Below, piece by piece: positions 10,609 through 40,064 of a stretch of 59,590 nucleotides of DNA (position 1 is its first letter; each line of letters begins with the position of its first letter). The position numbers and the translations under genes are program-made. The stretch spans positions 1 through 59,590 of the forward strand of contig JAUQWQ010000003.1 in assembly GCA_030835085.1 (NCBI GenBank). Direction: 5' to 3'. The notes beneath the pieces are model-generated. The model did no database searches, was not told the DNA's origin, and saw nothing but the letters and a program-made list of their open reading frames with translations. This stretch comes from Ignavibacteria bacterium. Its GTDB lineage: Bacteria > Bacteroidota > Ignavibacteria > Tepidaquicellales > OLB5.

Positions 10609-11859
10609 ATGAAAAAAATTATTCTTATACTTTTAATTCCCTTTTTCACTTATTCGCAGGGATGGTTTGTTCAAACTACATTCAGCCCGGCGCAGTCACT
10701 GCAGACAGTGAGATTTTATGATCAGAATACAGGTTATACAACTGCTCCGCTCTACAATGGTTCAAATTTCAATATTCATAAAACCACCAATGCGGGGTCC
10801 AACTGGTTTGACCAGAATTCAGGTTACACTTCAATGAGGTTTATGGCAATATGGATCCAGCATCCTGATACTGTTTACATGAGCGGGAATGACGGAATAA
10901 TTATCAGAACTGTGAACGGCGGAATTAACTGGGTCACGGTCAATTCAGAACCAACATTGCAGTTGTGGGGATTGTGTTTTGTAAACTCCTTAACCGGATT
11001 TACATCAGGCTCCACAGGTAGAATTATGAAAACCACTAATGCGGGTGTTAACTGGGTAAATGTTACATCACCAACGCAAACATCACTGAATTCGATTTAT
11101 TTCATAAATGAAAATACCGGATTTATATCGGGTTATGCTATTGCACTTAAAACTACTGACCAGGGTGCAAGCTGGGCAAACATGAACGCGCCGTTCATAA
11201 GCGGGTTTGAAAATTTCAGGGAAATATATTTCTTCAACGAAAACCTTGGTCTGTATGTTTCTGATGCAGGCAGAATAGTTAAAACCACTAACAGCGGTGC
11301 TACATGGAATGTAATGAACTCAGGTACAACGCAGTCATTATTCGGAGTGAAATTCATTGATGCCCAAACAGGCTACGCCTGCGGAAATGCCGGGGCAATC
11401 GTAAGGACTACCGATGGGGGAGAGAACTGGTTCGGGCAAACCTCACCTCTGAATGAAATATTGACTGACGTCTGGTTCACAAATGCCAATACCGGATATA
11501 TTTCGTCTTGGTCAGGTAAGATACTTAAGACTACCAATGGCGGAATAACTTTCATTGAGCCGGTAAGCAGTGAGACTCCAGAGAAATTTTTACTTGAACA
11601 GAATTATCCGAATCCGTTTAACCCGGAAACAAAAATTCGATTTCAAATTCCGGCTTCTGCAGAGACGACCCGGGGGGTTGTCTCACTTAGAATTTACGAT
11701 GTTTCCGGCAAAGAAATTTCGACTCTCGTAAATGAAGAAATGAAGCCCGGTATTTATGAAATCAACTGGAATGCCGAAAATATGCCAAGCGGCGTATATT
11801 TTTATCAGCTGAATATAGGTGAATTTACACAAACTAAATCTATGATATTATTTAAATAA
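10609..11859 (+). CDS. T9SS cargo: Ycf48/BNR-like propeller (family B), palindrome in sorting domain
   Basis: A 416-residue secreted protein with a short signal peptide (residues 1-16). Residues about 18-310 contain about seven repeats of the Ycf48 type: NTGYxxG..G.IxKTTNAGxNWxxxxS. The Ycf48 name comes from a photosystem assembly factor in cyanobacteria; nothing here suggests photosynthesis. NYPNPFNP is at 332-339. The sorting domain has five extra residues between the first two strands (ETTRG in the insert), encoded by a palindrome at 11662-11684. The C-terminus is KSMILFK. It probably shares a transcript with the PQQ/PKD gene five bases upstream. Confidence 0.83.
   Translation: MKKIILILLIPFFTYSQGWFVQTTFSPAQSLQTVRFYDQNTGYTTAPLYNGSNFNIHKTTNAGSNWFDQNSGYTSMRFMAIWIQHPDTVYMSGNDGIIIRTVNGGINWVTVNSEPTLQLWGLCFVNSLTGFTSGSTGRIMKTTNAGVNWVNVTSPTQTSLNSIYFINENTGFISGYAIALKTTDQGASWANMNAPFISGFENFREIYFFNENLGLYVSDAGRIVKTTNSGATWNVMNSGTTQSLFGVKFIDAQTGYACGNAGAIVRTTDGGENWFGQTSPLNEILTDVWFTNANTGYISSWSGKILKTTNGGITFIEPVSSETPEKFLLEQNYPNPFNPETKIRFQIPASAETTRGVVSLRIYDVSGKEISTLVNEEMKPGIYEINWNAENMPSGVYFYQLNIGEFTQTKSMILFK
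11662..11684 (+). repeat. In-frame 23-nt palindrome in a sorting-domain coding region
   Basis: Arm GAGACGACCC, loop GGG, arm GGGTTGTCTC (one G-T pair). Translated as ETTRGVVS. The same unit, in the same reading frame and protein position, occurs at 27395-27417 and 34600-34622. Confidence 0.8.
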
Positions 11860-11913
11860 TATAATTATATTAGTGCTGTAAGTTTCTATTTCATAAACCT
11901 TTTTCCCATAACT

Positions 11914-23010: not shown

Positions 23011-25443
23011 TTATGTTGTCTTCCGGGTGAAGGAAATTAACGCAGCAAACGCTGCCAAATAACAAACAGCCCCTGTCCAGTAAGATACTGATATACCGTA
23101 ATTCATAGCTATAATTATGGATATGACTGTTGCAAGAACGCTCATAACACCGTTAATACCCCAAAGCCATGGTGTAATGCCGGGAGCTTTTTCTCCGGCT
23201 AATTTAATACCGGCAGGGAATGCCATTCCCAGAAAAAGCCCCATAGGAAAGAGTGTGAGAACTGATACAAGAACTCGTATTTCAGTGGATTGCTCTCTGA
23301 ATGCATGTATTATATATGGAGTAAATATCCCGAATAAAATCAACGTTATTATCAAAAAAATAAATCTTAGCTTGCTGCCAGAAGCAAAATTATGCTTATC
23401 AGCCCCGCTGAAATAACTTCCTATTCCGCTTGATAAAAGCATTGTAAACAATGCAGCCGCAAGGCTGTACGTGGGGTGACCCAGGAATATATTCAGCCTC
23501 TGTATCTGCGATATTTCAATAAGCATAAAACCAAGCCCGATTGCAATGAAAAATATAAAAAATCCTGATGTTCCTTTGAGTTTTACTTTTTTAGCTGTTA
23601 GTTTCAGAGGAATAACTATACACAAAAATGATAATACCGACATTGTTCCCGCAAGCGTAAGCAATATAAATATAGCTTTGGCGTTAAAACCCATATCCCA
23701 GGTGTTCCACATCTGCGTATTTGGCAGGTCGGTAAAATTCATGTAATGGAAAAAGAACGGTTTATCGTCACTTGGTGATGTAATATCTAACGGGAAATTT
23801 TTATTAAGATCACCCCTTAAGTTTTCATTGGTAAGCTTTACAAAAACAGAGTCAGCTGCATGCTGTGGAGATATTATATCTTCAAACTCAAAAGTTCTGC
23901 AAAGGCTATCGACCATGTTCATATCTTTACTGCTGAAGGGAGATCTGCTTATTAGCAGTGTACCGGTCCCGCTTCTGTCTTCAATTCTTTCCTGCTGCTG
24001 GCATTTTATAAGCATTACGTGGCTGCGTATATCCTTTATGCCTGATTCTATAAGCGCATCAGCAGTAATGTTCATAAGCCTGTAATGCTCAATAGGCTTG
24101 GCGCGGTAAAACCTTGTAACTGTCAGTATGCCGTCCGGCTTTAGCCTGCTGAAGAGCAGCTTCCAGGTTTCTGTGGTATACAACGCGTTTTCGGTGAGTA
24201 CAAATGCACCTGATGCCGCTGCTGACCAGTTATCAATTACCGAGACCTGTATAATATCAAACTTCCTTGAGGTGTCCATTCTCTGAATATAACTGCGCGC
24301 TTCATCGCCAACAAACTCAACATTCGGGTATTTATCCAGGTGCCCCGTAAAATTACCAAAATCATTATTGATGGCGCTTATCATATCCTTATTTATCTCT
24401 ATGCCAAGTATATTCTTCTGCCCGAATGCAAGCGAAGAAAGCACATCGCGCCCCGCGCCGCTGCCGATAATCATAATATCGCCCTGCGGTCTTAAATATT
24501 GTGCTAAATTAGAAACATCATACTTAAGATGAGAGAGCTCCGAAGTATCGCCGTTAAAGTGTGACAACACTGTTGTTGAGTGCGCATCAATATTCAGCAT
24601 AAGCTGCCTTATTTTGCGGGAGCGGTCATACTTGTTACTTAAGCCCCAGCCAAAGGGTGTTTCATATTTGGTTGAGTCACCATCTATGCTCACACGGCTG
24701 AATGAATTCCATTTTTCATATAAAGGCTTTTCAGCCCACTCGCCGCGAACCCAGAATAATCTGAGCAGCGGTTCATGTTTCTGCACTAACACAGTATGGA
24801 ATACCGCGAAGACAAGAATCACAAGAGAGAAAACAGCAATTCCTTTCCCCAGGGAAGTTTTTAATTCTGAATTTCTGTTAAATGAATACGCGGCTGCAGC
24901 TGAAAAAAGCGCTGTAATAAATACACCGGTGGGTCCGCCGGAAACATTAAGCACAATAACGACCAGTATACAACCCAATGACGCGCCGATGAGATCAGCA
25001 GCGTAAAGCTTATTTACTGATTTAGGAAACCTGGTAAGAAGCAGCGATATACAAATACCGCTGAACACGAACGGTACTGAAATTTCCGCGTAAGTGAAAG
25101 CGGTAACAGCCATACCGAATAAAGACATTCCGTGTATAAACGGAATGAACAAATGTATAAGAAAACTCAGCAGAGTAGCCAGGCTGAAGTACAGCGCCTG
25201 TTTAGTTAGAATTGAGTTTATTTTTTCCTGGGGGAATTTATGCGGGAAGATATATACTATTATAGCTCCAACTGTCATACCGAACATAGCCAGTGATACA
25301 GCCATAAACGCAAAATGGTAGCCCATGGTTACACTGAAAATACGCGTAAGCAGTATTTCATACATTAAGGTTGAAAGAGCTACCAGGAAAATTCCGATAT
25401 AATTGCTTTTTGTTACTTGCGGCTGATTTTGGGCTGAATTCAT
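23011..25443 (-). CDS. Membrane-embedded spermidine-synthase-like protein
   Basis: An 810-residue protein with about seven N-terminal transmembrane helices (residues about 15-220), a central soluble Rossmann-type methyltransferase/aminopropyltransferase domain (about 240-560), and about seven C-terminal helices (580-800). In the central domain, the nucleotide-binding loop reads MIIGSGAGRDVLSSL, followed by the acidic GIEINKDMI and by DIIQVSVIDNW. This resembles SpeE-like proteins fused to MFS-like membrane segments. Whether it makes polyamines is uncertain, because membrane-fused members often have unknown substrates. It starts 76 bases after the last gene of the cargo operon on the same strand, so read-through is possible. 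Confidence 0.75.
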   Translation of the reverse strand: MNSAQNQPQVTKSNYIGIFLVALSTLMYEILLTRIFSVTMGYHFAFMAVSLAMFGMTVGAIIVYIFPHKFPQEKINSILTKQALYFSLATLLSFLIHLFIPFIHGMSLFGMAVTAFTYAEISVPFVFSGICISLLLTRFPKSVNKLYAADLIGASLGCILVVIVLNVSGGPTGVFITALFSAAAAYSFNRNSELKTSLGKGIAVFSLVILVFAVFHTVLVQKHEPLLRLFWVRGEWAEKPLYEKWNSFSRVSIDGDSTKYETPFGWGLSNKYDRSRKIRQLMLNIDAHSTTVLSHFNGDTSELSHLKYDVSNLAQYLRPQGDIMIIGSGAGRDVLSSLAFGQKNILGIEINKDMISAINNDFGNFTGHLDKYPNVEFVGDEARSYIQRMDTSRKFDIIQVSVIDNWSAAASGAFVLTENALYTTETWKLLFSRLKPDGILTVTRFYRAKPIEHYRLMNITADALIESGIKDIRSHVMLIKCQQQERIEDRSGTGTLLISRSPFSSKDMNMVDSLCRTFEFEDIISPQHAADSVFVKLTNENLRGDLNKNFPLDITSPSDDKPFFFHYMNFTDLPNTQMWNTWDMGFNAKAIFILLTLAGTMSVLSFLCIVIPLKLTAKKVKLKGTSGFFIFFIAIGLGFMLIEISQIQRLNIFLGHPTYSLAAALFTMLLSSGIGSYFSGADKHNFASGSKLRFIFLIITLILFGIFTPYIIHAFREQSTEIRVLVSVLTLFPMGLFLGMAFPAGIKLAGEKAPGITPWLWGINGVMSVLATVISIIIAMNYGISVSYWTGAVCYLAAFAALISFTRKTT

Positions 25444-25519: not shown

Positions 25520-27223
25520 TTATTTCAGCACTACTATCTTCTTTGTTTGAGTAAATTCATTTGTAATTAATGAATAAAAATACACACCGCTTGGTATGTT
25601 TTCAGCGTTCCAGTCAATTTCGTAAATGCCGGGTTTGAGATTTTCGTTAACAAGAATGGATATTTCTTTTCCGGTAACATCAAAAATGGCAAGTTTAGTG
25701 AAACCGGATTTTGGCATTTGGAATTTGAGCTTTGTCATTGGATTGAACGGATTTGGATAATTCTGGAACAGTTCAAACCTTTTTGGAATTTCAGTGCTTA
25801 TCGGTTCAATTCCAATGGGCACGCAAGTTTGGAAATCGTTGTAATAATATTTAAGAGCTGAGTCTGATATCGATTGCAGCGCGCACACATTCTGGAAATT
25901 GTTTCCGCCGTTTCGTGTAATCATAAAGCTTAAAACGACCACTTGTGTATCTCCGGATTGCATTCTAAATGGACCGGAATTCTGTATATATCTGTTTTGA
26001 CCGAATGAACTATCATACCAGCCTGTTCTTAGACAGGCGTTACCGCTGTATCTGAATTTAGTTGGCTGACCTGTTACCCAATTTATTAAAGTGTTGCCGC
26101 AGCCGTCCTTTCCTTTCATGAAATTATAAGCATTTACTGCATTATCAGGGTCTCCATTGCATTCATTTCCTCCATTTAGAAATTTATTATATGAGGTCAT
26201 ACCTTTTTGCAGAAATCCCGTTAAAGTATCATAAGGCAGTTTTGCAGTATCGGTTGATATACCTGTATATAATAATGGACTCTGCATGAACCGTGTTCCA
26301 ACAGCAGGGGGATTTACTCCATATATTGGATCAGAATTAAGAGATTTATACATAAAACCAAGATCCCTTAATGTATCACATCCTGTCGGTTCATCAGAAG
26401 TTTGTCCGATATCAACTTCATTTGCTAATGTAAAATAAACGCTATCCCAATTAAGTAAACTCTTATTTATAATACGGAATTTTGTATAATACATATCCCG
26501 TAACGAAAAACAGTTAAAATTGAAAACAATTTGCTGTATCTCTACACCTAAAGGTCTGGTTCCACCCGGTAAGCTTAACTCACTTCTGTGAATTGAATCT
26601 GTGCAATTAGTATAATCCATAAACACCATAAATAAAATTTCTTCCGGTCTTGCAGTCATACCGTTGCCAATGCCGGGTCTGTCTCCGTTCCAAGCCGGCT
26701 GGTAGCCGGGAATGCCGTTCACTTCAACATAAGGTGCACCTTTCTGAACTGGCCAGCTTACCCAGGAGTCATAATTGAATGTATACTGCCTTCCGCCTGC
26801 GTTTTTATATCTTGTACCCCCGTTAAAAAGCGAGGGATCAGATAATTGTATATAATACCCTCGCCAGGAAGGGTCGCTGCAAACAGATGAAGGTGGTACC
26901 TGCCCAATTACCGGAATGTTGCCGGGTGTATATTGAGTACTCCATAAAGAAACTGCCATCCTGAGCTCATTTTGTGGACCTGCTTTAGCGGCGATCCAGA
27001 TTCCTGAAGTTTCAATTGCTGTTAATCTTTGTTGTGAAGTTACCGGCCAGATAAAACCTGCTATTGAACTTGAAAATGTGACTCTGTCAAAATTAAAATA
27101 TCCATCAGTTCTGAAAACTGCATTGATGTTGTTGCCCTGCATAAAGATGCTTTGGGCAGGAGCAAGCGATTGTGAGTTTATTTGAATGGTCAAAAACAGT
27201 ATCAGTATAGATATTGATTTCAT
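25520..27223 (-). CDS. T9SS cargo family A (A1), last gene of ATGA operon
   Basis: A 567-residue secreted protein of unknown function. The signal peptide ends near residue 18 (INSQ). The body opens with IFMQGNNINAVFRTDGYFNFDR, and about nine cysteines recur in the operon A proteins: SSVCSDP, TNCTDS, NCFSLRD, GCDTLR, NECNGDP, DGCGN, NACLRTGW, NVCAL, TCVPIG. The Asp-rich stretch DIGQTSDEPTGCD and the GDPDNA segment could bind calcium, but this is speculation. NYPNPFNP is near 488, with the standard 11-residue loop. Its ATG overlaps the preceding stop (ATGA). It ends AAA-TAA, unlike the six upstream genes, which end in AAA-TGA and create the next start. Confidence 0.8.
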   Translation of the reverse strand: MKSISILILFLTIQINSQSLAPAQSIFMQGNNINAVFRTDGYFNFDRVTFSSSIAGFIWPVTSQQRLTAIETSGIWIAAKAGPQNELRMAVSLWSTQYTPGNIPVIGQVPPSSVCSDPSWRGYYIQLSDPSLFNGGTRYKNAGGRQYTFNYDSWVSWPVQKGAPYVEVNGIPGYQPAWNGDRPGIGNGMTARPEEILFMVFMDYTNCTDSIHRSELSLPGGTRPLGVEIQQIVFNFNCFSLRDMYYTKFRIINKSLLNWDSVYFTLANEVDIGQTSDEPTGCDTLRDLGFMYKSLNSDPIYGVNPPAVGTRFMQSPLLYTGISTDTAKLPYDTLTGFLQKGMTSYNKFLNGGNECNGDPDNAVNAYNFMKGKDGCGNTLINWVTGQPTKFRYSGNACLRTGWYDSSFGQNRYIQNSGPFRMQSGDTQVVVLSFMITRNGGNNFQNVCALQSISDSALKYYYNDFQTCVPIGIEPISTEIPKRFELFQNYPNPFNPMTKLKFQMPKSGFTKLAIFDVTGKEISILVNENLKPGIYEIDWNAENIPSGVYFYSLITNEFTQTKKIVVLK

Positions 27224-28938
27224 TTCAGCACTACCATCTTCTTTGTTTGAGTAAATTCATTTGTAATTAATGAATAAAAATACACACCGCTGGGAATATT
27301 TTCGGCGTTCCAGTCAATTTCGTAAATGCCTGGTTTGAGATTTTGGTTTACCAGTTCGACAATTTGTTTTCCAAGAACATCGTAAATTCTCAGGGAGACG
27401 ACCCGCTGGGTCGTCTCTACAAAAGCAGGTATTTGAAAACGTATTTTTGTCATTGGATTAAAAGGGTTCGGATAATTCTGAAACAGTTCAAATCTTTGTG
27501 GAATTTCAGTGCCAATTGGCTCAATTCCAATGGGTACGCATGTGCGGAAATCGTTGTAATAATATTTAAGAGCTGAGTCTGATATCGATTGCAGCGCACA
27601 CACATTCTGGAGATTGTTTCCGCCATCACGGGTTATCATGTAATTAAATACTACTATTTGAGTATCACCAGACTGCATGGTAAACGGACCCATATTAGTG
27701 ATATTTCGTTTATCGCTACTTAGACTATCATACCAGCCTGTTCTTAGACAGGCGTTACCGCTGTATCTGAATGTAGTTGGCTGGCCTGTTACCCAGTTTG
27801 TCAAAGTATTTCCGCAGCCGTCTTTTCCGCGCATGTAATTAAACGCGACGTATGCCTCATCAGGGTCGCCGGTACACTCATTACCACCACCTACAAACAC
27901 ATAAAATCCTGACATTCCGGTCATTTTATAACCTGTCAAAGTATCATAGGGCAAAATCACGGTATCATTATTGTTACCTGTAAATTTTAAAGGGGTTTGC
28001 AAGAACCTATTGCCTATTGCTGGCGGATTCGTTCCATAGTCGGCATCATTGTTACTGATGTTGTACAAAAAACTCAGATTTCTCAAAGTGTCACATCCCT
28101 GAACATCATCAAATGCACTTCCCAAATCTATATCGTTTATATTTGATATGTATACGCTATCCCAGATTAATGAGCTTTTATTTACAAAACTGTATTTCAT
28201 AAAGTACATATCCCTTAACGGAATACAATTGAACATGAATACAATCTGGTGAACTTCAACCCCTAACGGCAAAGTTCCTCCGGGCAATGATAATTCGCTT
28301 ACATGAATTGTATTACTGCAGTTTGTGTAATCCATAAAGACCATATATGATAGTTCGTCCGGTCTTGCAGTCATCCCGTTACCTATTCCCGGCCTGTCAC
28401 CATCCCATGCAGGCTGGTAGCCGGGGATTCCGTTCACTTCAACATAAGGCGCACCCTTTTGTACGGGCCAGGCGGCCCATGAGTCGTAGTTAAATGAGTA
28501 TGGTCTCCCTCCAGCTGTCTTGATTCTTATCCCGCCATTAAACAGTGCAGGATCAGTCAGTTGTACTAAGTAACCCCTCCAGGACGGGTCGTTGCAGACG
28601 GAAGAAGGAGGTACCTGACCGGTTACCGGAATATTACCGGGTGTAAAATGCGAGTTAAAAAAAGATGCCGCGAGCCTAAGCTCTCTTTGAGGACCGGCCT
28701 TGGCTCCTATAAACATACCACTTGAATATACAGCTGTGAGTCTTTGAGGTGCTGTGACAGGCCAAATAAAACCTGCAGCCCCGGAAGGAAATGTAGAGTT
28801 ATCCCTGTTGTATACACAATTGTTGTAAAAAATGGAGTTAATGTTATTTCCCTGCATTATAGTGTATGGTACAGGTGAGAGGCTCTGTGAATTCAGGCTG
28901 AACGAACAAATCATCAATGATAAAATGATCCTTTTCAT
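27220..28938 (-). CDS. T9SS cargo family A (A2), palindrome in sorting domain
   Basis: A 572-residue paralogue of A1. Signal peptide residues 1-18. Compared with its siblings, the N-terminus reads FYNNCVYNRDNSTF instead of FRTDGYFNYDKVTF, adding a cysteine. The rest follows family order: GNIPVTGQVP, SSVCNDP, YDSWAAWPV, GAPYVEVNGIPGYQP, WDGDRPGIGNGMTARP, LGSAFDDVQGCD, GKDGCGN, SGNACLRTGW. The sorting domain has five extra residues (VETTQ in the insert) encoded by the palindrome at 27395-27417. The DNA around its C-terminal region is nearly identical to A1 on both sides of this insert, so it looks mosaic. Start and stop both lie in ATGA overlaps. Confidence 0.8.
   Translation of the reverse strand: MKRIILSLMICSFSLNSQSLSPVPYTIMQGNNINSIFYNNCVYNRDNSTFPSGAAGFIWPVTAPQRLTAVYSSGMFIGAKAGPQRELRLAASFFNSHFTPGNIPVTGQVPPSSVCNDPSWRGYLVQLTDPALFNGGIRIKTAGGRPYSFNYDSWAAWPVQKGAPYVEVNGIPGYQPAWDGDRPGIGNGMTARPDELSYMVFMDYTNCSNTIHVSELSLPGGTLPLGVEVHQIVFMFNCIPLRDMYFMKYSFVNKSSLIWDSVYISNINDIDLGSAFDDVQGCDTLRNLSFLYNISNNDADYGTNPPAIGNRFLQTPLKFTGNNNDTVILPYDTLTGYKMTGMSGFYVFVGGGNECTGDPDEAYVAFNYMRGKDGCGNTLTNWVTGQPTTFRYSGNACLRTGWYDSLSSDKRNITNMGPFTMQSGDTQIVVFNYMITRDGGNNLQNVCALQSISDSALKYYYNDFRTCVPIGIEPIGTEIPQRFELFQNYPNPFNPMTKIRFQIPAFVETTQRVVSLRIYDVLGKQIVELVNQNLKPGIYEIDWNAENIPSGVYFYSLITNEFTQTKKMVVLK
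27395..27417 (-). repeat. In-frame 23-nt palindrome in A2
   Basis: Perfect 10-bp arms GAGACGACCC and GGGTCGTCTC around the loop GCT (plus-strand reading). In the gene it encodes ETTQRVVS. Same frame and loop as the copies at 11662 and 34600. Confidence 0.88.
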
Positions 28939-30638
28939 TTCAATACCACCATTTTTTTTGTTTGGGTATACTCGTTTGTAATGAGTGAATAAAAATACAC
29001 ACCGCTGGGAATATTTTCGGCGTTCCAGTCAATTTCGTAAATGCCTGGTTTGAGATTTTCGTTAACTAGTATTGATATTTCTTTTCCGGTGACATCAAAT
29101 ACAACAAGTTTAGTGAAACCGGATTTTGGCATTTGGAATTTGAGCCTTGTCATTGGATTGAACGGATTTGGATAATTCTGGAACAGCTCAAATTTTTGAG
29201 GGATTTCAGTGCTTATCGGTTCAATGCCAATGGGAAGGCATGTTCGGAAATCAGCGAAGTAGTATTTCAATGCTGAGTCTGAAACAGAGCGCAGCGCACA
29301 GACATTCTGATTATTAGTTCCGCCGTTGCGGGTTATCATGTAATTTAACAGTACAATCTGAGTATCACCTGAATTAATAGTAACCGGTCCCATGTTCATT
29401 ATCGTTCTCTTATCTCCCGGCAAGCTATCATACCACCCGGTTTTTGTACATGCATCTCCTGAATATCTGTATCTTGTTTGCTGACCGGTTACCCAATTTA
29501 TAATTGGATTGCCGCAGCCATCTTTACCGCGCATAAAATTATAGGCAAGTATTGCCTGGTCAGGATCTCCTGAACATTCATTTCCGCCGCCTAAAAATCC
29601 GTTGAATCCGCTCATCCCTGTCATTTTGTAACCTATCAATGTATCATACGGTAATCTCGCAGTATCATTATTACTTCCTGTGTAAATCAACGGTGTTTGA
29701 AGAAACCTTACCCCAATTGCAGGCGGGTTTGTACCGTAATCATAATCACTATTATCATTATTGTAAGTGAATCCAAGATTCTTTGATGAATCGCAGCCGA
29801 ACGAATCATCACCGGCATTTCCAAGATCTGGGTCATTCAAATTGGAAATATATGTGCTATCCCAGGTTAGTGAGCTTTTGTTTATAATAGTATATTTAAC
29901 AAAGTACATATCCCTTAACGGAAGGCAATTGAAATTAAAAACCAACTGGTGAATTTCCGCACCCAAAGGGGGAGTGCCTCCGGGTAAACTTAATTCAGAC
30001 ATGTGAATTGAATCGCGGCAGTCTGTATAATCCATATAAACCATAAACAGTAATTCTTCAGGTCGGGCTGTCATTCCGTTGCCAATGCCGGGTCTGTCGC
30101 CATCCCAGGCAGGCTGGTAACCGGGTATGCCATTGACTTCAACATATGGTGCACCTTTTTGAACGGGCCAAGATGCCCATGAATCATAGTTGAAAGTGAA
30201 TTGCCTGCCGCCGGCAGTTTTGTACCTGGTTCCGCCATTAATCAGTGATTGATCATTGATCTGGACAAAATATCCTCTCCATGATGGATCCGTACATACA
30301 GATGAAGATGGTACCTGTCCTATAACCGGAATATTGCCCGGTGTATAATGCGAATTAAACATTGATGCTGCAAGGCGAAGTTCTCTTTGGGGTCCGCATT
30401 TCGCACCGATCCAGAAACCTGATGTAAACACAGCGGATAACCTTTGAGGCGCAGTTGCCGGCCATACAAAGCCTGCCACACCACTGGAAAAAGTGACTTT
30501 ATCATAGTTGAAATAGCCATCTGTTCTGAAAACAGCATTGATATTGTTGCCCTGCATAAAAATATTTTGTACAGGTGCCAGACTCTGAGAGTTAATATCT
30601 AAAGTTAAGAAAAGTAAAACCAAAATTAAAGTTTTCAT
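28935..30638 (-). CDS. T9SS cargo family A (A3)
   Basis: A 567-residue secreted paralogue, same layout as A1. The signal peptide is MKTLILVLLFLTLDINSQ. The start segment IFMQGNNINAVFRTDGYFNYDKVTFSSGVAGFVWP is almost shared with A4 and A5. Local differences are in the Cys/Asp regions: TDCRDS in place of TNCTDS, DLGNAGDDSFGCDSS, and NECSGDPDQA. The sorting domain has the standard loop (KSGFTKLVVFD) and ends in KKMVVLK. Its start lies in the ATGA junction with B1. The closest relatives are in the same operon, which points to recent tandem duplication. Confidence 0.8.
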   Translation of the reverse strand: MKTLILVLLFLTLDINSQSLAPVQNIFMQGNNINAVFRTDGYFNYDKVTFSSGVAGFVWPATAPQRLSAVFTSGFWIGAKCGPQRELRLAASMFNSHYTPGNIPVIGQVPSSSVCTDPSWRGYFVQINDQSLINGGTRYKTAGGRQFTFNYDSWASWPVQKGAPYVEVNGIPGYQPAWDGDRPGIGNGMTARPEELLFMVYMDYTDCRDSIHMSELSLPGGTPPLGAEIHQLVFNFNCLPLRDMYFVKYTIINKSSLTWDSTYISNLNDPDLGNAGDDSFGCDSSKNLGFTYNNDNSDYDYGTNPPAIGVRFLQTPLIYTGSNNDTARLPYDTLIGYKMTGMSGFNGFLGGGNECSGDPDQAILAYNFMRGKDGCGNPIINWVTGQQTRYRYSGDACTKTGWYDSLPGDKRTIMNMGPVTINSGDTQIVLLNYMITRNGGTNNQNVCALRSVSDSALKYYFADFRTCLPIGIEPISTEIPQKFELFQNYPNPFNPMTRLKFQMPKSGFTKLVVFDVTGKEISILVNENLKPGIYEIDWNAENIPSGVYFYSLITNEYTQTKKMVVLK

Positions 30639-32734
30639 TTTACTACCACCATCTTTCTGGTCTGTTTATAATTATCAGTAAAAAGTGAATAAAAATATAT
30701 ACCGCTTGAAACTTCCGAAGCATTCCAGTCAGCTTCGTAAATTCCGGGTGTGAGATTTTCGTTTACCAGCACAGCAATTTCTTTGCCAAGTATATCGTAA
30801 ACTTTAAGTAACACATTCCGCCCCCCGTGTATTCCTCCGGAGTATGGGATACTGAATCTGATTTTAGTTACTGGATTAAACGGGTTCGGGTAATTCTGAA
30901 AAAGGATAAAAGTTTTTGGTATTTCAGTTGAAATAGTTGTTATTCCTATTCCGCCGCTGGTTGTACGCATTATTCCTCCATACATTCCAACACACCAGCC
31001 ATAGTTTTCATCAATAAAGTGGAGACCAATACCGTATACTGAATTACTTCCTCCTGCCTGGATAAACCAGTTTACTCCTCCATTAGTTGTTTTCCTTATT
31101 TGGTTGCCTGCAACAAGCCAGCCGGTTTGCTCATTTACGAAATAGAGCTTTTGATACTGTCCGCCGGCTACCTGGTATTGCTGCCAGTTATTACCTGTAT
31201 TAGTAGACTTAAGCAGGAAAAATGCGCTGGTTGTATTTGTAAAAGCGAATCCGGTATTGCCTATGAACTGAACAGAACCGGTATGATTTGAAGAGGACTG
31301 AACCCAGTTTAAGCCTCCGTTTGTAGTTCTGTAGAGTCCGGAATTTTTACCTGCAAATCCGGTGTTATTATCGATAAAGCAGATCTCATTCAGATTCATA
31401 GTTTCAAATCTTGTCCTTACCCAGTTAATTCCTGAATTGGTCGTTTTTATTATATACCCAAGGCTCCCGGCAGCCCATCCTGTATTTTGGTCTATAAAAT
31501 GTATTGCTGCAATTTGTGATGAATCATTATACACAGTTTGCCAGCTTCCGCCGCCGTTGGATGTCCGGAAAATTATACCGTTTGGAATAACATCCCAGCC
31601 GCCAATAAATCCTGTTTGGTTATTCACAAACTGTATATCCTTTAATGAATAGTTTGTACCTAAATTTGAAACCAGCCAGTTAATTCCTCCGTTTGTTGAA
31701 CTGATCAGTATTCCTTTATCTCCGCATGCAAATCCGGTAAACTGGTTTGTAAAATACACTGAATTCAGATGTTCTTTGGTAAGATACTCTCTGTAAATGA
31801 GGTTCCAGCTGTTCCCAAGGTTAGTTGAATTTAATATAAGAGCACTATCAGCGGCAATCCAGAAATTACCATCATTTGTAATTGATGCAGCATTTACCTG
31901 TACGTTTAAACCGTTGGAGGGTAACTGTTCCCATGTACTTCCTGTATTGGTTGACCTGAAGAAAGCACCCGGTGAACCGAAAGCATATGCAGTGCCGTTT
32001 TGAGTAAAGCTAATTCCCGAAACCAGGTATGAATTTACATAAAACGGGCTCCAGTTGGCTCCGCTGTTCGTTGTCCTGTATATATTGCCTCCTGTACCGG
32101 ATACAAAACCTGTCTGGCTGTTCTTAAATTTTACATGTGAATAAAAACCAAGGTAATTATCATAAAATAAATTCCAGTTTGCTCCTCCATTGGTAGTTGA
32201 TAATATTATTCCCCAGTCACCTGCACATATACCATTGTTATCATCGGCAAAAGCGATTGCCCTTAATGTAACGCTGGTACCGGAAGGAATAGATATCCAG
32301 TTAACTCCGCTATTGGTAGTTTTTTTAATCTTTCCTGAATCACCGCATACCCATCCTGTTAAAAGGTCCCTGAAAAACAGCCCGCGCGGATTAGAAACAG
32401 AGGTGTTAATTACGCTCCAGTTCATACCTGAATTTGATGTAAAATTCAGGTAATTATTTTCACCAACCCAGCCAATATCTTTATTGTAAAAGTAAAAACA
32501 ATTCAACTGGTTGAATTGATGTACTAAATTAAAGACATTCCAGTTAGTTCCGCCATTTGTAGTTTTTAAAAGGTTAACGTTATCAAGTACCCAGCCCGTC
32601 TGATTATCAAAAAAAACAATATCTTTAAAATGCTGGCCGGTCGTATTTACACCGGGATAAACTATCTGCCATCCGCTTTGTGAGAGTATAATAGATGAAG
32701 AGAAGAGCATTAATAATACAGTTATTGTTTTCAT
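30635..32734 (-). CDS. T9SS cargo family B (B1): long Ycf48-like propeller
   Basis: A 699-residue secreted propeller sandwiched between A4 and A3. Signal peptide residues 1-18. The body is an array of about 40-residue repeats with TTNGGTNW, TTNSGVNW, STNTGSTW, TSNGGGSW and so on, preceded by DNQTGWV, NNTGF or EQTGWL type segments. It is close in length and repeat order to B2. The sorting domain has six extra residues in the insertion-prone loop (YSGGIHGGRN) from a GC-rich stretch near 30811-30850 that is not a clean palindrome. It ends in KMVVVK. Translation should be coupled to A4 upstream and A3 downstream by ATGA overlaps. Confidence 0.82.
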   Translation of the reverse strand: MKTITVLLMLFSSSIILSQSGWQIVYPGVNTTGQHFKDIVFFDNQTGWVLDNVNLLKTTNGGTNWNVFNLVHQFNQLNCFYFYNKDIGWVGENNYLNFTSNSGMNWSVINTSVSNPRGLFFRDLLTGWVCGDSGKIKKTTNSGVNWISIPSGTSVTLRAIAFADDNNGICAGDWGIILSTTNGGANWNLFYDNYLGFYSHVKFKNSQTGFVSGTGGNIYRTTNSGANWSPFYVNSYLVSGISFTQNGTAYAFGSPGAFFRSTNTGSTWEQLPSNGLNVQVNAASITNDGNFWIAADSALILNSTNLGNSWNLIYREYLTKEHLNSVYFTNQFTGFACGDKGILISSTNGGINWLVSNLGTNYSLKDIQFVNNQTGFIGGWDVIPNGIIFRTSNGGGSWQTVYNDSSQIAAIHFIDQNTGWAAGSLGYIIKTTNSGINWVRTRFETMNLNEICFIDNNTGFAGKNSGLYRTTNGGLNWVQSSSNHTGSVQFIGNTGFAFTNTTSAFFLLKSTNTGNNWQQYQVAGGQYQKLYFVNEQTGWLVAGNQIRKTTNGGVNWFIQAGGSNSVYGIGLHFIDENYGWCVGMYGGIMRTTSGGIGITTISTEIPKTFILFQNYPNPFNPVTKIRFSIPYSGGIHGGRNVLLKVYDILGKEIAVLVNENLTPGIYEADWNASEVSSGIYFYSLFTDNYKQTRKMVVVK

Positions 32735-34428
32735 TTCAGCACCACCATTTTTTTTGTTTGGGTAAATTCATTTGTAATAAGTGAATAAAAATACACACCG
32801 CTTGGAATATTTTCAGCATTCCAGTCAATTTCATATATGCCGGGTTTGAGATTTTGGTTAACAAGTATCGAAATTTCCTTTCCGGTGACATCAAAAACAG
32901 CAAGTTTGGTGAAGGCGGATTTTGGCATTTGGAATTTGAGCTTTGTCATTGGATTAAACGGATTAGGATAATTCTGGAACAGCTCAAATTTTTGGGGAAT
33001 TTCAGTGCTAATCGGTTCAATTCCAATGGGCACGCATGTGCGGAAATCGTTGTAATAATATGCTAATGCGGAATCCGAGAGTGATTGTACTGCACAAACA
33101 TTTTGCAGGTTATTCCCCCCGGTTCGGGTTATCATGAAACCAGTCATAACTATTTGCGTATCACCGGAATTCATAATAAACGGACCTGAGCCAATAAAAT
33201 TCTTTTTATCACCCATTAAGCTATCATACCAGCCGGTTCTTGCGCAGGCATTGCCGCTGTACCTGAATTTTGTTTGTTGACCGGTAACGGGGTTTAACAT
33301 AGGCAGGCCACATTCGTTTAATCCCGTAAGGTAGTAATATGCGGTTGTATCCTTATCCGGATCGCCGTAACAGCCTCCTCCTTTAAAGGAATTATGAGTC
33401 GTCATTCCAACAAGTTTGTATCCGGTTAAAGTATCATATGGTAATTTGGCCGTATCGGATTGGGAGCCGGTAAATCTTAAGGGACTTTGCAGTAAACGTA
33501 TTCCAACTGCCGGAGGATTGGTACCGTAATCAGAATCATCATTATCAAAATTGTAAACAAAACCCATATTTCTGATTGTATCACATCCGCTTGCATCATC
33601 ACTGGCATTTCCAAGATCTGAATCACTTACAATAGAAATATATGTACTATCCCAAAGCAACGAGCTTTTATTGATAATTCTGTATTTTACAAAATACATA
33701 TCACGCAATGGGAAACAGTTAAAATTGAATACAATTTGCTGTATTTCAACACCCAACGGCTTTGAGCCACCGGGTAAACTTAATTCAGTATAATGAATGG
33801 AATCTGTACAATTGGTATAATCCATATAAACCATAAACAAAATCTCTTCCGGCCTGGCTGTCATACTGTTGCCAATACCGGGTCTGTCACCATCCCAGGC
33901 AGGCTGATACCCGGGAATTCCATTGACCTCAACATAAGGAGCGCCTTTTTCTACAGGCCATGCAGCCCATGAATCGTAGTTAAACGCGTACTGATTTCCG
34001 CCTGCCATTTTAAATCTGGATCCTCCACTGAAGAGAGATTGATCGTTTAAATGCACATAATAACCGCGCCATGAAGGGTCATCGCAAACAGATGATGGAG
34101 GTACCTGACCAATTACCGGTATATTGCCCGGCGAATAATGTGAATTATAAAGTGAAGCAGCCAATCTAAGTTCATGCTGCGCGCCGACTTTTGCTCCAAT
34201 GAAAAATCCTGTAGAAAAGATCGCAGTTAATCTTTGCGGCGAAGTTGCAGGCCATACAAATCCTGCAATATTGCTGGAAAAGGTCACTTTATCATAATTA
34301 AAATAGCCGTCAGTTCTGAAAACGGCATTAATGTTGTTACCCTGCATAAAAATGTTTTGTACCGGTGCGAGACTCTGAGAGTTAATGTTTAAAGTTAAGA
34401 AAAGTAAAACTAATATTAAAGTTCTCAT
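32731..34428 (-). CDS. T9SS cargo family A (A4)
   Basis: A 565-residue secreted paralogue, the shortest operon A protein. The signal peptide is MRTLILVLLFLTLNINSQ, nearly identical to A3. The middle part diverges: GGCYGDPDKDTTAYYYLTG, GLNECGLP and LNPVTGQQT replace the GGNECxGDPDxA, GKDGCGN and INWVTGQPT of its siblings, so one Cys-containing loop is remodelled. NYPNPFNP is followed by the standard loop (KSAFTKLAVFD). The C-terminal part is nearly identical at DNA level to A1 and A3. ATGA overlaps at both ends. Confidence 0.8.
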   Translation of the reverse strand: MRTLILVLLFLTLNINSQSLAPVQNIFMQGNNINAVFRTDGYFNYDKVTFSSNIAGFVWPATSPQRLTAIFSTGFFIGAKVGAQHELRLAASLYNSHYSPGNIPVIGQVPPSSVCDDPSWRGYYVHLNDQSLFSGGSRFKMAGGNQYAFNYDSWAAWPVEKGAPYVEVNGIPGYQPAWDGDRPGIGNSMTARPEEILFMVYMDYTNCTDSIHYTELSLPGGSKPLGVEIQQIVFNFNCFPLRDMYFVKYRIINKSSLLWDSTYISIVSDSDLGNASDDASGCDTIRNMGFVYNFDNDDSDYGTNPPAVGIRLLQSPLRFTGSQSDTAKLPYDTLTGYKLVGMTTHNSFKGGGCYGDPDKDTTAYYYLTGLNECGLPMLNPVTGQQTKFRYSGNACARTGWYDSLMGDKKNFIGSGPFIMNSGDTQIVMTGFMITRTGGNNLQNVCAVQSLSDSALAYYYNDFRTCVPIGIEPISTEIPQKFELFQNYPNPFNPMTKLKFQMPKSAFTKLAVFDVTGKEISILVNQNLKPGIYEIDWNAENIPSGVYFYSLITNEFTQTKKMVVLK

Positions 34429-36527
34429 TTTACTATCACCATCTTTCTGGTCTGTGTATAATTATCAGTAAAAAGTGAATAAAAATAAATGCCGCTTGAG
34501 AAATTCGAAGCATTCCACCCGACTTCATAAGTACCGGGAGTGAGGATTTCGTTTACCAGCACGGCAATTTCTTTGCCAAGTATATCGTAAATCTTCAGTG
34601 AGACGACCCGCCGGGTCGTCTCTGCAAAAGAGGGAATACTGAATCTTATTTTTGTTACCGGGTTAAACGGGTTTGGATAATTCTGAAATAGTGTATAATA
34701 TCGCGGTATCTCCGCTGAAATTTGAGTTATACCTATCCCTCCGTTTGTCGTTCGCATAATTCCGCCGTTATCACCCACAACCCAGCCGCGGTTTTCATCA
34801 ATAAAGAATATCGAGTTTACCGCAATCGAATTGCTGTTAGTATTTTGTATATTCCAGTTTACGCCGCCATTTGTTGTTTTCCTGATTATGTTTGAAGTGT
34901 TTAACCATCCGGTTTCAGAATTTATGAAATACAGATCTTTCCTGTTGCTTCCTTCTACCGTATAAGTGATCCAATTTTCGCCTAAATTGGTTGACTTCAT
35001 AAAATTTCCTGAAGTTGAGCTGAGCGCAAACCCGGTATTACCAACAAATTGTATAGAGATAATCGTAAAAATTGAAACCCTGTACCAGTTCAATCCGCCG
35101 TTGGTTGTTTTGTGCATTCCGTTGCTTCCTATGAAACCCGTATTTTCATTGATAAAAAATATATCATTTATATAACTTAGCGGGGGAGATGTTGTAATTG
35201 CAGTTTTAACCCATGAATTCCCGGCATCGGTTGTTTTAAGGAAAGCTCCATAATTTCCCGCACACCAGCCAGTAGTTGGGTTGATAAAATGCATACTGAT
35301 TAATTGTAGTGAGTCGTTATAAACAGTCTGCCAGTTATTTCCAGAGTTAGTTGTTTTAAGAACAACCCCCAAATAACCCTCAGCACCTCCAATAAATCCT
35401 GTACTGCTGTTAACGAACTTTATTGAATTCAGCGATTTTCCTGTTCCAAGATTCTGATAACTCCAGTTAACACCGCTGTTTGTTGTTTTAAGCAGAACTC
35501 CGTGCGTTCCAACGGCAAACCCGGTTGACTGATCGGTAAAATAAACTGATTTAAGATTCTCTTTTGTTATATATTCCCTGTGTGCTATGTTCCAGTTATT
35601 GCCATTATCAGTAGATCTGAATATCATACCGCTATCTGCAGCGCACCAGAATGAGTTAGCAGGAGTAACAGATGCAGCAAAAACCTGGGATATCAGACCG
35701 TTTGCTGTGACTTGCTCCCAGGAGCTGCCTGAATTTGCTGATCTTAAATATGAAAATGGGGAACCGAATACATAACCTGTATTGGCTGAATTGACTTCAA
35801 TTGTGTTTTGAATTAATAAGTTTGTAAAATGCGGAACCCAGTTCTCTCCGCGGTTGGTAGTTCTGTATATAATACTGCCCGTTCCGGTGACAATACATGT
35901 TTGACTATCGAAGAATTTTACGTTAATAAAAAAATTCATGTAGTTATCTGTAAAATTATTCCAGTTTATTCCTCCGTTTGTAGTCCATAATATAGTACCC
36001 CAGTCACCGCCGCAAACTCCGAAATCATTATCTGCAAAGGCTATTGAATTCAGGTTGTAGGTAGTTCCTGAGCTCAGACTTAACCAGTTATGGCCCCCAT
36101 TTGTCGTTTTCCTGATCATTCCGCTTGTACCGCAGTACCATCCGTTGGAGATATCTTTGAAATACATTCCCTTTATACCAAATGTTGTAGTATCAATTGT
36201 CACCCAATTTGCTCCGCTGTTAGATGTAAAGATCAGGTATTTTCCCTCTAACACCCATCCGGTATTTTCATTCAGGAATTGAAAGCAGTTCATTGAATTA
36301 TTGTTGTTGTGAGATATGTTATGAGTTATCCAGTTTTGAGCCGCATTTGTTGTTTTTCTTACATTAGATTGTGTTAATACCCAGCCGGTCTGTTCGTTAA
36401 AAAATGAAATATCTCTAAAGTACGGGGTATAAACGTATTCACTGGAATAAATCACTTCCCAGCCTCCCTGGGAGAATATTGCTGTTTGAGATAAAATAAA
36501 AAGTAATGTTATAATCGTCTTTTTCAT
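34425..36527 (-). CDS. T9SS cargo family B (B2), palindrome in sorting domain
   Basis: A 700-residue secreted propeller, the second gene of the operon. Signal peptide residues 1-19. The repeats carry TTNAAQNW, TTNGGHNW, TTNRGENW, STDNGNNW, TTNSGVNW, TTDAGNSW and similar. Many lines match B1 one-to-one (for instance the REYITKENLKSVYFTDQSTGF segment), which shows the pair arose by duplication. NYPNPFNP is followed by a loop with five extra residues (FAETTRR) encoded by the palindrome at 34600-34622. It ends in KMVIVK. The A5 stop and its ATG share ATGA. Confidence 0.83.
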   Translation of the reverse strand: MKKTIITLLFILSQTAIFSQGGWEVIYSSEYVYTPYFRDISFFNEQTGWVLTQSNVRKTTNAAQNWITHNISHNNNNSMNCFQFLNENTGWVLEGKYLIFTSNSGANWVTIDTTTFGIKGMYFKDISNGWYCGTSGMIRKTTNGGHNWLSLSSGTTYNLNSIAFADNDFGVCGGDWGTILWTTNGGINWNNFTDNYMNFFINVKFFDSQTCIVTGTGSIIYRTTNRGENWVPHFTNLLIQNTIEVNSANTGYVFGSPFSYLRSANSGSSWEQVTANGLISQVFAASVTPANSFWCAADSGMIFRSTDNGNNWNIAHREYITKENLKSVYFTDQSTGFAVGTHGVLLKTTNSGVNWSYQNLGTGKSLNSIKFVNSSTGFIGGAEGYLGVVLKTTNSGNNWQTVYNDSLQLISMHFINPTTGWCAGNYGAFLKTTDAGNSWVKTAITTSPPLSYINDIFFINENTGFIGSNGMHKTTNGGLNWYRVSIFTIISIQFVGNTGFALSSTSGNFMKSTNLGENWITYTVEGSNRKDLYFINSETGWLNTSNIIRKTTNGGVNWNIQNTNSNSIAVNSIFFIDENRGWVVGDNGGIMRTTNGGIGITQISAEIPRYYTLFQNYPNPFNPVTKIRFSIPSFAETTRRVVSLKIYDILGKEIAVLVNEILTPGTYEVGWNASNFSSGIYFYSLFTDNYTQTRKMVIVK
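34600..34622 (-). repeat. In-frame 23-nt palindrome in B2
   Basis: Perfect 10-bp arms GAGACGACCC and GGGTCGTCTC around GCC (plus-strand reading). Encodes ETTRRVVS in the gene. Same site as in A2 and in the 10609-11859 protein. Confidence 0.88.
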
Positions 36528-38263
36528 TTCAACACCACCATCTTTTTTGTTTGGGTAAACTCATTTGTAATGAGCGAATAAAAATACGCACCGCTTGGGA
36601 TATTTTCGGCGTTCCAGTCGATCTCGTAAATGCCGGGTTTGAGATTTTCATTTACCAGCGCCGCGATTTCTTTACCAAGTACATCGTAAATTTTAAGGGA
36701 GACTCCCAGTTTGTCTCCCCCTGACAGGGGGAGATTTAGAGGGGGTATTTGAAAACGTATTCTTGTCACCGGATTAAACGGATTCGGGTAATTCTGTAAT
36801 AGCTCATATTTTTGGGGAATCTCAGTACTTATTGGTTCAATTCCAATGGGCACGCAAGTGCGGAAATCGTTGTAATAATATTTAAGAGCGGAATCTGATA
36901 ACGATTGCAGCGCGCATACATTCTGGAAATTATTGCCGCCATCACGGGTAATCATGTAGCTGATAACCACTATTTGTGTATCGCCTGAGTTCATTGTAAC
37001 CGGACCCATATTAAACAGATCGCGCTTGTCACCCGGAATACTATCGTACCAGCCAGTCCTGCTGCATACATCGCCCGGGAATTTGAATGTTGTTGGTTGT
37101 CCGGTTATCCAATTGATAAATGTATTACCGCATCCGTCCTTTCCCCGCATGAAATTGAAAGCAAGTTCGGCATTGTCAGGGTCGCCGGTACATTCATTTC
37201 CTCCACCAATAAATGAATTAAATCCAGTTAAACCGGTTAATTTAAAACCCGTTACTGTATCATAGGGTAAATAAACTGTATCACTGTTTAGCCCTGTATT
37301 TCTAAGCGGACTCTGCAGGATTTTCATCCCTAAAGCAGGAGGATTCATGCCATAAACCTGATCATTATTATCTAAATTGTATTGAAAAACCAGGTTTTTC
37401 AGAGTATCACAGCCAATACCATCATCATTTGACTCTCCAAGATCTGAATCATTTGCATATGAAATATATGTGCTATCCCAATTCAGCGAACTCTTGTTAA
37501 TAATTCTGTACTTAACAAAATACATATCGCGAAGGGGAAAGCAGTTGAACATAAAATTAATCTGTTGTATTTCTACACCCATAGGTAATGTTCCGCCGGG
37601 AAGTGATAATTCTTGAACATGCTGAGTATTTGTACAATTTGTGTAATCCATGAAGACAAAGAAGGATAGCTCTTCGGGTCTTGCAGTCATTCCGTTGCCA
37701 ATGCCGGGTCTGTCGCCATCCCAAGCAGGCTGGTAGCCCGGTATTCCGTTTATTTCAACATACGGTGCACCCTTTTGCACAGGCCATACTGCCCAGGAAT
37801 CATAATTGAAAGTATATTGCCTTCCGCCTGCTATTTTATATCGTGTACCGCCTGAAAATAATGCAGGGTCGGTTAGTTGTACATAGTACCCGCGCCATGA
37901 AGGATCACTGCATACTGTTGATGGTGGAACTTGACCTATTTGTGGAATATTGCCGGGTGAGTAGTGTGTATTGTAGAATGAAGCTGCAAGTCTTAGCTCA
38001 CGCTCGGGTCCGACTTTTGCACCTAACCAAATACCTGAAGTAAACACAGCGGTAAGCCTTTGGGGGGATGTTGCAGGCCAAATGAAACCTGCAACACCGC
38101 TGGAAAAAGTTACTTTGTCATAATTAAAATATCCGTCAGTTCTGAAAACAGCGTTGATGTTGTTGCCCTGCATGAAAATTGTCTGTGCGGGTGCCAGTGA
38201 CTGTGAGTGGATTATTGATGCTGCTATCAATAAGAGGAACAGATAATTTACGAGGGTTTTCAT
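36524..38263 (-). CDS. T9SS cargo family A (A5), first gene of ATGA operon
   Basis: A 579-residue secreted paralogue and promoter-proximal gene of the seven-gene operon. Signal peptide residues 1-20 (ASIIHSQ). All nine operon-type cysteines are present, including SSYxxC replaced by PSTVCSDP, and DVCSRTGW in place of NACxRTGW. The sorting-domain loop has nine extra residues (PLNLPLSGGDKL), part of which is encoded by a different 21-nt palindrome at 36714-36734. It ends in KKMVVLK, with the stop in the ATGA overlap with B2. Upstream is a 205-base gap in which I recognise no TAnnTTTG box on this strand. Confidence 0.8.
   Translation of the reverse strand: MKTLVNYLFLLLIAASIIHSQSLAPAQTIFMQGNNINAVFRTDGYFNYDKVTFSSGVAGFIWPATSPQRLTAVFTSGIWLGAKVGPERELRLAASFYNTHYSPGNIPQIGQVPPSTVCSDPSWRGYYVQLTDPALFSGGTRYKIAGGRQYTFNYDSWAVWPVQKGAPYVEINGIPGYQPAWDGDRPGIGNGMTARPEELSFFVFMDYTNCTNTQHVQELSLPGGTLPMGVEIQQINFMFNCFPLRDMYFVKYRIINKSSLNWDSTYISYANDSDLGESNDDGIGCDTLKNLVFQYNLDNNDQVYGMNPPALGMKILQSPLRNTGLNSDTVYLPYDTVTGFKLTGLTGFNSFIGGGNECTGDPDNAELAFNFMRGKDGCGNTFINWITGQPTTFKFPGDVCSRTGWYDSIPGDKRDLFNMGPVTMNSGDTQIVVISYMITRDGGNNFQNVCALQSLSDSALKYYYNDFRTCVPIGIEPISTEIPQKYELLQNYPNPFNPVTRIRFQIPPLNLPLSGGDKLGVSLKIYDVLGKEIAALVNENLKPGIYEIDWNAENIPSGAYFYSLITNEFTQTKKMVVLK
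36714..36734 (-). repeat. In-frame 21-nt palindrome of a second type in A5
   Basis: Arms TCTCCCCCTG and CAGGGGGAGA flank a single A. It lies in the same sorting-domain loop as the 23-nt palindromes, but has a different sequence and translation (NLPLSGGD). Confidence 0.8.
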
Positions 38264-38468
38264 ATCTTTTTTTTAAAACATAGCTAAAAAAACAAGGATT
38301 GTCAATAAACAAATGAGAAATTATTAATTTAAGAGTTCATTAATCCTCTTATAAATAATTTGTATAGATAAGATCAATCAATTTGAAAATGTGATTAAAA
38401 TCAACTGAAATTCGCATTTTTGGATAATTTTTGTAAAGGACAACTTATTGAACACAAAGACAGGATTT
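38264..38468. other. Intergenic gap upstream of the seven-gene operon
   Basis: A 205-base AT-rich gap. It must hold the operon promoter if the operon has its own, and the end of the 38469-40064 gene's upstream transcript lies elsewhere. I found no clear -7 box on the minus strand, hairpin or repeat here. Confidence 0.4.
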
Positions 38469-40064
38469 TTACTTTTTTCTCACATAACCAAAGTAATTCA
38501 GCCAGAATGTAATTGTTATAAATGCCAAAACCGCAATTATAGTTGTCAGCATACTTTTGTAAACGAACAATTGCAGCAGTATCACTAATGTTCCGTATAT
38601 AAAAGGATATATTATCGAAGTCATTCTTTGCAGGGAATTGATCAGTGTATTTTCACGGGTGAATGGTAAGCTTCTGCTTAAAAGGTTATATATAGAATTG
38701 TACAAATTAGCAGCCGCGAAAATGAATATTGTATGCAATAATGCCTGGTGCATAGGGATCTTAATTGTAAAAATTATTCCTAGACCAATACATGCGGGAA
38801 TCAAAAGGTATACTACAAAAAACTTCCTGAAGCCGTTCCTGAAATTCCTTTTTGATGCAGCAGGGTATGAATCATAAACCCACGAAGCTCCGGAATAATT
38901 TGTTACTTTAACCCCTATTATGGCAGTGTTCAATACAACCAGAAGGCTGAGCAGCAGAGAAATGTGGAATACAGGTTTTATATCAAAATAATTTTTATCA
39001 AACGGCGGGGGTAACTGATTTGTTATCAGTGCAAAAATACCAAGGCCCAATGGGATAATTATCATAGGGAGTATCGCCAGTCTTACGGTTTTATCTTTGT
39101 AATATAGGGCACGTATCAGACCGTACGAAGAACGCTCTGTATTATTGCGCAAATATACGTTCTGTATGAGATCGCTTATCATTGCAAAGATAAAAAATCT
39201 TTTCTTTCCGGAACCGGCGGCTGCTATAACTCTTGAATTCAGAAATTTATCTCTTATGTGCACATAATTTTCATCAAGATACATTTTCAGGCTGAAGTAA
39301 CTTAAAATTGTTATCAGCAAAGGCATAACCAGTTTGATTATCAAACCTGCTTCGAGCAGGTACTGATTGCGCGTTGTTAAAAATGCAAACCATGCAGGCG
39401 GGAAGTAGTCAATTACTCCTTTTTGCTGAAGTGAAGCTATGTAACCGTTCACACTGCTGCCGGGTCTTCCTGTTATACCAAAAGAAATGAACTGGTAAGC
39501 CATAATGAGGAGCAGGATCATTCCCGCCTGGAATATCATTGTGTATGAGCCTACGCTTTTTGTGCGGAATACTTTCAGTGCCATACTGTACAGCAGTATC
39601 AGAACATTCGCTGTGAAGAAACAAAGCATTAATGCTGAAATATAGAAAAGAAGTGCCCGGGGGAAAGACCTGAGTATAGCGTAATAATAAATGCTGCCCG
39701 GCAATAGCAGGGGTAAAGATAATAACAGTAGATAACGGGTTATCATGTACATTTTTGCATTCACCAGGAGCTTCAGATCAATTGGCATTGCTGCAAGTAT
39801 TTCAGCCTCTGTTTTACTGGTTATGAGATTATCAAGCTCAGTAATAATTGTGAATGCAATTATAAGAGAGTAGAATAAAAACGTTAAGAATGAGAACTGG
39901 AATCCTGTCGGGTCAGCGTTTTGTTTAAGCAGTATCCATGGTAAAAATACTCCCGGTATGAAATACGAAATATTTAGCAGCAGCATTTTTCTGCCGGAAC
40001 CTGTTTTGCTCCTGGTTTCAAGTTTCAGCAGCAGGCTGCCGAGTATTTTTACTTTATTTATCAA
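38469..40064 (-). CDS. Multi-pass membrane protein, possible ABC-2-type permease
   Basis: A 531-residue inner-membrane protein with about 12 hydrophobic helices. The segment FTIITELDNLITSKTEAEILAAMPI between early helices resembles the cytoplasmic loop of large ABC-2-type permeases, but no ATPase gene is adjacent, so the assignment is tentative. The start is TTG, 14 bases after the mltG stop; the next in-frame Met is at residue 27. Together with mltG and the glycosyltransferase it forms a three-gene minus-strand cluster, of which it is the last. No terminator is seen after it. Confidence 0.55.
   Translation of the reverse strand: MINKVKILGSLLLKLETRSKTGSGRKMLLLNISYFIPGVFLPWILLKQNADPTGFQFSFLTFLFYSLIIAFTIITELDNLITSKTEAEILAAMPIDLKLLVNAKMYMITRYLLLLSLPLLLPGSIYYYAILRSFPRALLFYISALMLCFFTANVLILLYSMALKVFRTKSVGSYTMIFQAGMILLLIMAYQFISFGITGRPGSSVNGYIASLQQKGVIDYFPPAWFAFLTTRNQYLLEAGLIIKLVMPLLITILSYFSLKMYLDENYVHIRDKFLNSRVIAAAGSGKKRFFIFAMISDLIQNVYLRNNTERSSYGLIRALYYKDKTVRLAILPMIIIPLGLGIFALITNQLPPPFDKNYFDIKPVFHISLLLSLLVVLNTAIIGVKVTNYSGASWVYDSYPAASKRNFRNGFRKFFVVYLLIPACIGLGIIFTIKIPMHQALLHTIFIFAAANLYNSIYNLLSRSLPFTRENTLINSLQRMTSIIYPFIYGTLVILLQLFVYKSMLTTIIAVLAFITITFWLNYFGYVRKK

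Follow-up and report, generated by a model that had tools for sequence, protein, structure and literature searches.

The array of seven genes in a 59,590-nt stretch of Ignavibacteria DNA (the window) is a probable type IX secretion (T9SS) cargo operon built from an undescribed pair of proteins. In agreement with the preliminary description, five family A and two family B genes lie on the minus strand in the transcription order A-B-A-B-A-A-A, with exact ORF coordinates (Table 1). The TGA stop codon of each gene overlaps the ATG of the next in a 4-nt ATGA, as had also been noted, at all six junctions. The five A proteins share 72–78% sequence identity, and B1 and B2 share 57%. Each A protein contains 9–11 cysteines, nine of them common to all five, which is what the earlier label "cysteine-rich" refers to.

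Table 1. Positions in the window of the array, its flanks and related genes.
Feature	Position	Strand	Description
Propeller–A fusion	6251..8737	+	Natural fusion, 828 aa: one seven-bladed propeller, A domain, sorting domain; four more genomes have relatives
B-type gene	10609..11859	+	Ycf48-like, 416 aa; immediately precedes an A gene
A paralog	11914..13644	+	Related family A paralog, 576 aa
Downstream flank	23011..25443	-	810-aa gene; weak spermine-synthase match
A1	25520..27223	-	Family A, 567 aa; last gene, stop codon TAA
A2	27220..28938	-	Family A, 572 aa
A3	28935..30638	-	Family A, 567 aa; used for structure prediction
B1	30635..32734	-	Family B, 699 aa
A4	32731..34428	-	Family A, 565 aa
B2	34425..36527	-	Family B, 700 aa; Asp-box/Ycf48-like repeats, T9SS sorting domain
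A5	36524..38263	-	Family A, 579 aa; first gene; signal-peptide-like start, predicted super-β-sandwich, T9SS sorting domain
Upstream block	38264..38331	-	Conserved; proposed single promoter of the array; TTGACA 38305-38300, 17 nt, TATGTT 38282-38277
Upstream flank	38469..40064	-	531-aa gene

The array is almost certainly one operon. Since there is no intergenic space inside it, a single transcript is likely. A block of ~70 nt immediately before A5 is almost unchanged across five genomes and can still be recognised in a sixth, and the remainder of the intergenic region has drifted in the same comparison. The block contains TTGACA-17-TATGTT, which matches the sigma-70 consensus at 10 of 12 positions. 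Such matches are frequent by chance, and the candidate is therefore singled out by the conservation of the block, not by its consensus score. The longer pattern of the block has one match in the source genome when up to 3 mismatches are allowed; the block is absent in G008. Together with the overlaps found throughout the genus, this operon-specific block bears out the earlier proposal of one operon. Shine-Dalgarno motifs play little part in initiation and reinitiation in Bacteroidetes (PMC6728339), so the absence of strong motifs at the junctions is no objection.

The array is present in ten genomes of the same Ignavibacteria genus, which includes Chlorobi bacterium OLB5. The source genome (G000) is an assembly of 4.05 Mb in 234 contigs. 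An assembly artefact is rejected, as the array recurs in ten genomes, two of these with contigs longer than 1 Mb. Inside the arrays, 4-nt overlaps make up 34 of the 36 junctions that can be read, compared with 4 of 104 same-strand pairs outside the arrays in the same-genus loci; the junctions are related by duplication and are not independent events, so the count does not represent a probability. No 4-nt overlap occurs between the ~25 remaining same-strand neighbours of the window. One of the two exceptions is in G007, at whose first junction the upstream frame stops just before the next ATG. The other is in G003, where the B gene appears broken: on contig C102 (L073, L101), in-frame stops interrupt an array-type B gene whose tail continues into the next A gene, reflecting either a broken gene or an assembly error.

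The order of the genes differs between species. It is ABABAAA in the source genome (A:B 5:2), AAABAA in G014 (5:1), ABABA in G004 (3:2), AAABBA in G007 (4:2), AABABAA in G005 (5:2; two contigs, joined by inference), and AABA... in the partial array of G013; G006, G008, G003, and G011 contain array fragments. An A gene is first in every array with a readable start and last in every array with a readable end. Thus, of the "conserved order" described earlier, the composition and the ATGA junctions are kept across species, but the gene order is not. The idea that coupled translation balances the output of A and B is unsupported, because the gene ratio runs from 3:2 to 5:1 among arrays readable from end to end and the genes are reshuffled between species.

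All seven proteins match the T9SS sorting domain Por_Secre_tail (PF18962) above its 27-bit cut-off, confirming the earlier assignment, and all seven start with a signal-peptide-like N-terminus, read by eye. The source genome encodes the T9SS translocon protein SprA (SprA_N at E 9e-43) and has at least 150 type IX sorting-domain matches, many of them clustered, an unusually large cargo set. With SprA and so many sorting tails in the genome, export of the array products through the type IX system is expected, and so, judging from their sequences, is a location on the outer surface. The C-terminal sorting domain and the presence of SprA are features of T9SS type A cargo (TIGR04183/PF18962), and the signal-like start may be another. 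However, other cargo genes of the window lack the 4-nt coupling, and the A domain belongs to no described family. No TonB receptor (SusC)/SusD pair, as in a Sus-type polysaccharide utilisation locus, is found among the scanned window genes that flank the array. Our literature search finds no work on Ignavibacteria T9SS sorting domains or on Ycf48-like T9SS cargo, save one brief reference to a Ycf48-like protein.

Family B is probably a pair of seven-bladed Ycf48-like propellers. Thirteen Asp-box repeats are spaced by 38–45 residues, and a fourteenth can be read from the sequence near residue 590. PF14870 (PSII_BNR) matches B1 and B2 above the Pfam cut-off, with 112.8 and 135.9 bits (E 1e-32 to 1e-39). 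The number of repeats and the PF14870 matches make two seven-bladed propellers probable and agree with the propeller assignment made previously. The Asp-box repeats at this spacing resemble those of Ycf48, but B has ~14 of them instead of 7, is presumably exported, and has no photosystem to serve. In addition, B scores 139 and 166 bits against NF010237, the equivalog of Ycf48 proper, below its cut-off of 326 bits.

Apart from the sorting tail, no Pfam or NCBIfam model matches family A, and an A profile finds no match among PDB sequences at E up to 1. An AlphaFold2 model of A3 (48 sequences; pLDDT 89, pTM 0.80) is best matched by the N-terminal super-β-sandwich and linker helix of GH15, GH65, GH94, GH116, and related enzymes (Z 17–19, rmsd ~3.5 over ~240–270 residues). 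A structure search against a viral structure library gives no convincing match. The likeness to these glycosidases and phosphorylases is confined to this N-terminal part. The model contains only a few helices and no catalytic (α/α)6 barrel, and its C-terminal end is the sorting domain. Sequence identity to these enzymes is only 6–12%, and A, unlike them, is presumably exported and carries a sorting domain. According to the model, family A is a stand-alone super-β-sandwich without the catalytic barrel.

An acid-rich motif, D-x-D-x-G...DD..G.D...N.D..YG..PPA.G (residues ~251–300 of A3), is nearly invariant and shared across phyla; in the form D-x-D-x-G...DD..G.D...D..YG..P it is nearly invariant from Ignavibacteria to Latescibacteria. 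It may serve to bind either a metal ion or a ligand. Certain stand-alone folds of this class, the mutarotase-like sandwiches, are enzymes, and the invariance of the motif would also suit a glycan-acting enzyme that consists of the sandwich alone. We consider such an enzyme very unlikely, since the structures closest to A are N-domains that have no catalytic role in their two-domain enzymes, no catalytic residues can be assigned, and the motif could instead bind a metal ion. Of 293 genomes sampled from the class, 197 have the A domain, often within proteins of ~1,100 residues; beyond the class it is found in Zixibacteria, Eisenbacteria, Latescibacteria, and Marinimicrobia. In the source genome, a 1098-aa A-domain protein is encoded on contig C66 (L025:3516-12316), where genes for a TonB receptor, a PorV-family protein, and a GWxTD protein stand in the same row.

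Within the genus, nine genomes carry array-type B (scoring >400 bits, or truncated where a contig ends), always next to A and always on a contig with array A. The contig of G008 stops after two A genes and is outside this tally. G009, which is 97% complete, has neither array A nor array-type B; G012 has no array-type B, and A is represented there only by a fragment of uncertain type. Proteins that join a propeller to an A domain are encoded in five genomes from two families, and the window encodes one such protein. In the model of this fusion, the propeller is a standard seven-bladed one (Z 32.8); the model (pTM 0.63) yields domain folds only, with the domain orientation undefined. Short overlaps are 4.5- to 8.1-fold enriched among genes for subunits of heteromeric complexes (PMC10666635). 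The co-occurrence, the fusions, and this enrichment support the functional link between A and B that had been proposed. Therefore, A and B probably share a function. Whether they form a physical complex is nearly an even question, leaning slightly towards no.

B-type and A genes also meet outside the array. The pair at 10609-13644 recurs in G011, and in G006 with one gene between. Contig C31 of the source genome (L024:6814-16669) reads B-A-A, then a 275-aa gene, then another B-type gene, without overlaps; the layout is the same in G005 and is found in part in G004, G007, and G008. The source genome contains ~68 Ycf48-like ORFs, and for this reason adjacency outside the array is weak evidence. 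Elsewhere in the class, A genes mostly occur without B, and those in other phyla have no B-type neighbours.

The explanation that we favour, with about even confidence in it as a whole, is as follows. The array would be transcribed as one unit from its single operon-specific promoter, and ribosomes would proceed to each next gene by termination–reinitiation at the ATGA junctions. The products, with their Sec signals and type IX sorting domains, would reach the outer surface, where A and B would be subunits of one surface unit that binds a polymer or glycan. The A subtypes would have different fixed tasks, and the numbers of A and B would differ by species. The overlaps, the conserved upstream block, the co-occurrence, the fusions, the A fold, and the purifying selection are computed results. 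From them we infer the single transcript, the coupled translation, the surface location, and the shared function; physical contact between A and B and glycan binding are speculative, and glycan binding is less likely than not.

Alternatively, A and B could be separate surface binders for several related targets that are needed under the same condition, and could be co-expressed without assembling. A variable A:B ratio and order, distinct A subclades under purifying selection, and a genome with so many sorting-domain ORFs, many of them in clusters, would all be natural in such a repertoire. It is harder to reconcile with array-type B being found solely beside A, with the recurrence of propeller–A fusions, and with the A4-subclade gene that lies directly after a B gene in 5 of 6 genomes. 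We regard such a repertoire as rather unlikely.

The structure of PorZ of the type IX system contains propellers, a β-sandwich, and a T9SS C-terminal domain, and in this respect resembles the array set. However, PorZ appears as a weak Foldseek row (prob 0.13), and no array or fusion protein matches the PorZ family. PorZ is also a single core component (PMC5121618, PMC8545088), unlike the set of A and B genes in the array.

Homologs of the 531-aa and 810-aa flanking genes adjoin directly, ~20–90 nt apart, in G009, G010, G001, and G002, indicating that the array was either inserted between these two genes or lost in four lineages. G010 carries a separate, diverged A/B array elsewhere (L074), with three ATGA junctions. 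In a tree of the A proteins, the subclades are common to several species and occupy differing array positions; one subclade holds the first genes of the source genome, G014, G004, and G007. Ten ortholog pairs have dN/dS of ~0.05–0.13, values that are rough where dS exceeds 1.5. Distinct A subclades are kept under purifying selection. Antigenic variation is rejected, because dN/dS is well below 1 and the subclades are old and common to several species. A recent tandem expansion is rejected as well, because the cores of the paralogs are saturated at synonymous sites.

Between paralogs, similarity is higher in the last 45 codons than in the cores, and this includes the silent sites (0.65–0.83 versus 0.48–0.57). 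This suggests that the gene tails are homogenised by recombination, which would provide a route to shuffle genes with the junction kept. The same observation, together with the sequence AAATGA(A/G)(A/G) at every junction and the shuffling of gene positions between species, would fit an origin of the ATGA junctions as a by-product: genes with Lys-stop (AAATGA) at the end and Met-Lys (ATGAAA) at the start would be duplicated and shuffled by recombination through their alike tails, and the overlap would be inherited, with no role in dosage. However, A-A, A-B, B-A, and B-B junctions all keep the overlap, as do old, saturated paralogs, where drift should have opened gaps, and other sorting-domain neighbours in the source genome are separated by gaps of 5–250 nt. 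A by-product origin is less likely than not, and it can be combined with a shared function of A and B. A bolder reading, which we hold to be quite unlikely, is a modular surface machine, in which tails and ATGA junctions would act as joints, A and B cassettes would be exchanged and reordered into species-specific assemblies, and coupled translation and export would be kept.

If A and B do act together as in the favoured explanation, the array would be a type IX cargo operon that co-translates sets of surface proteins, and a glycosidase N-domain fold would be used alone as a surface protein. Ignavibacteria have been reported as abundant companions of anammox bacteria that may degrade matrix protein, as shown for another member (PMC5460018); a surface unit that binds the matrix would be of ecological interest for that reason. 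A function found for A would annotate many proteins, because the domain, which has no Pfam family of its own, is present in roughly two of every three genomes sampled from the class and in several other phyla. As a minor observation, a 146-aa ORF at 51107-51547 of the window is a candidate rifampin ADP-ribosyltransferase (Arr).
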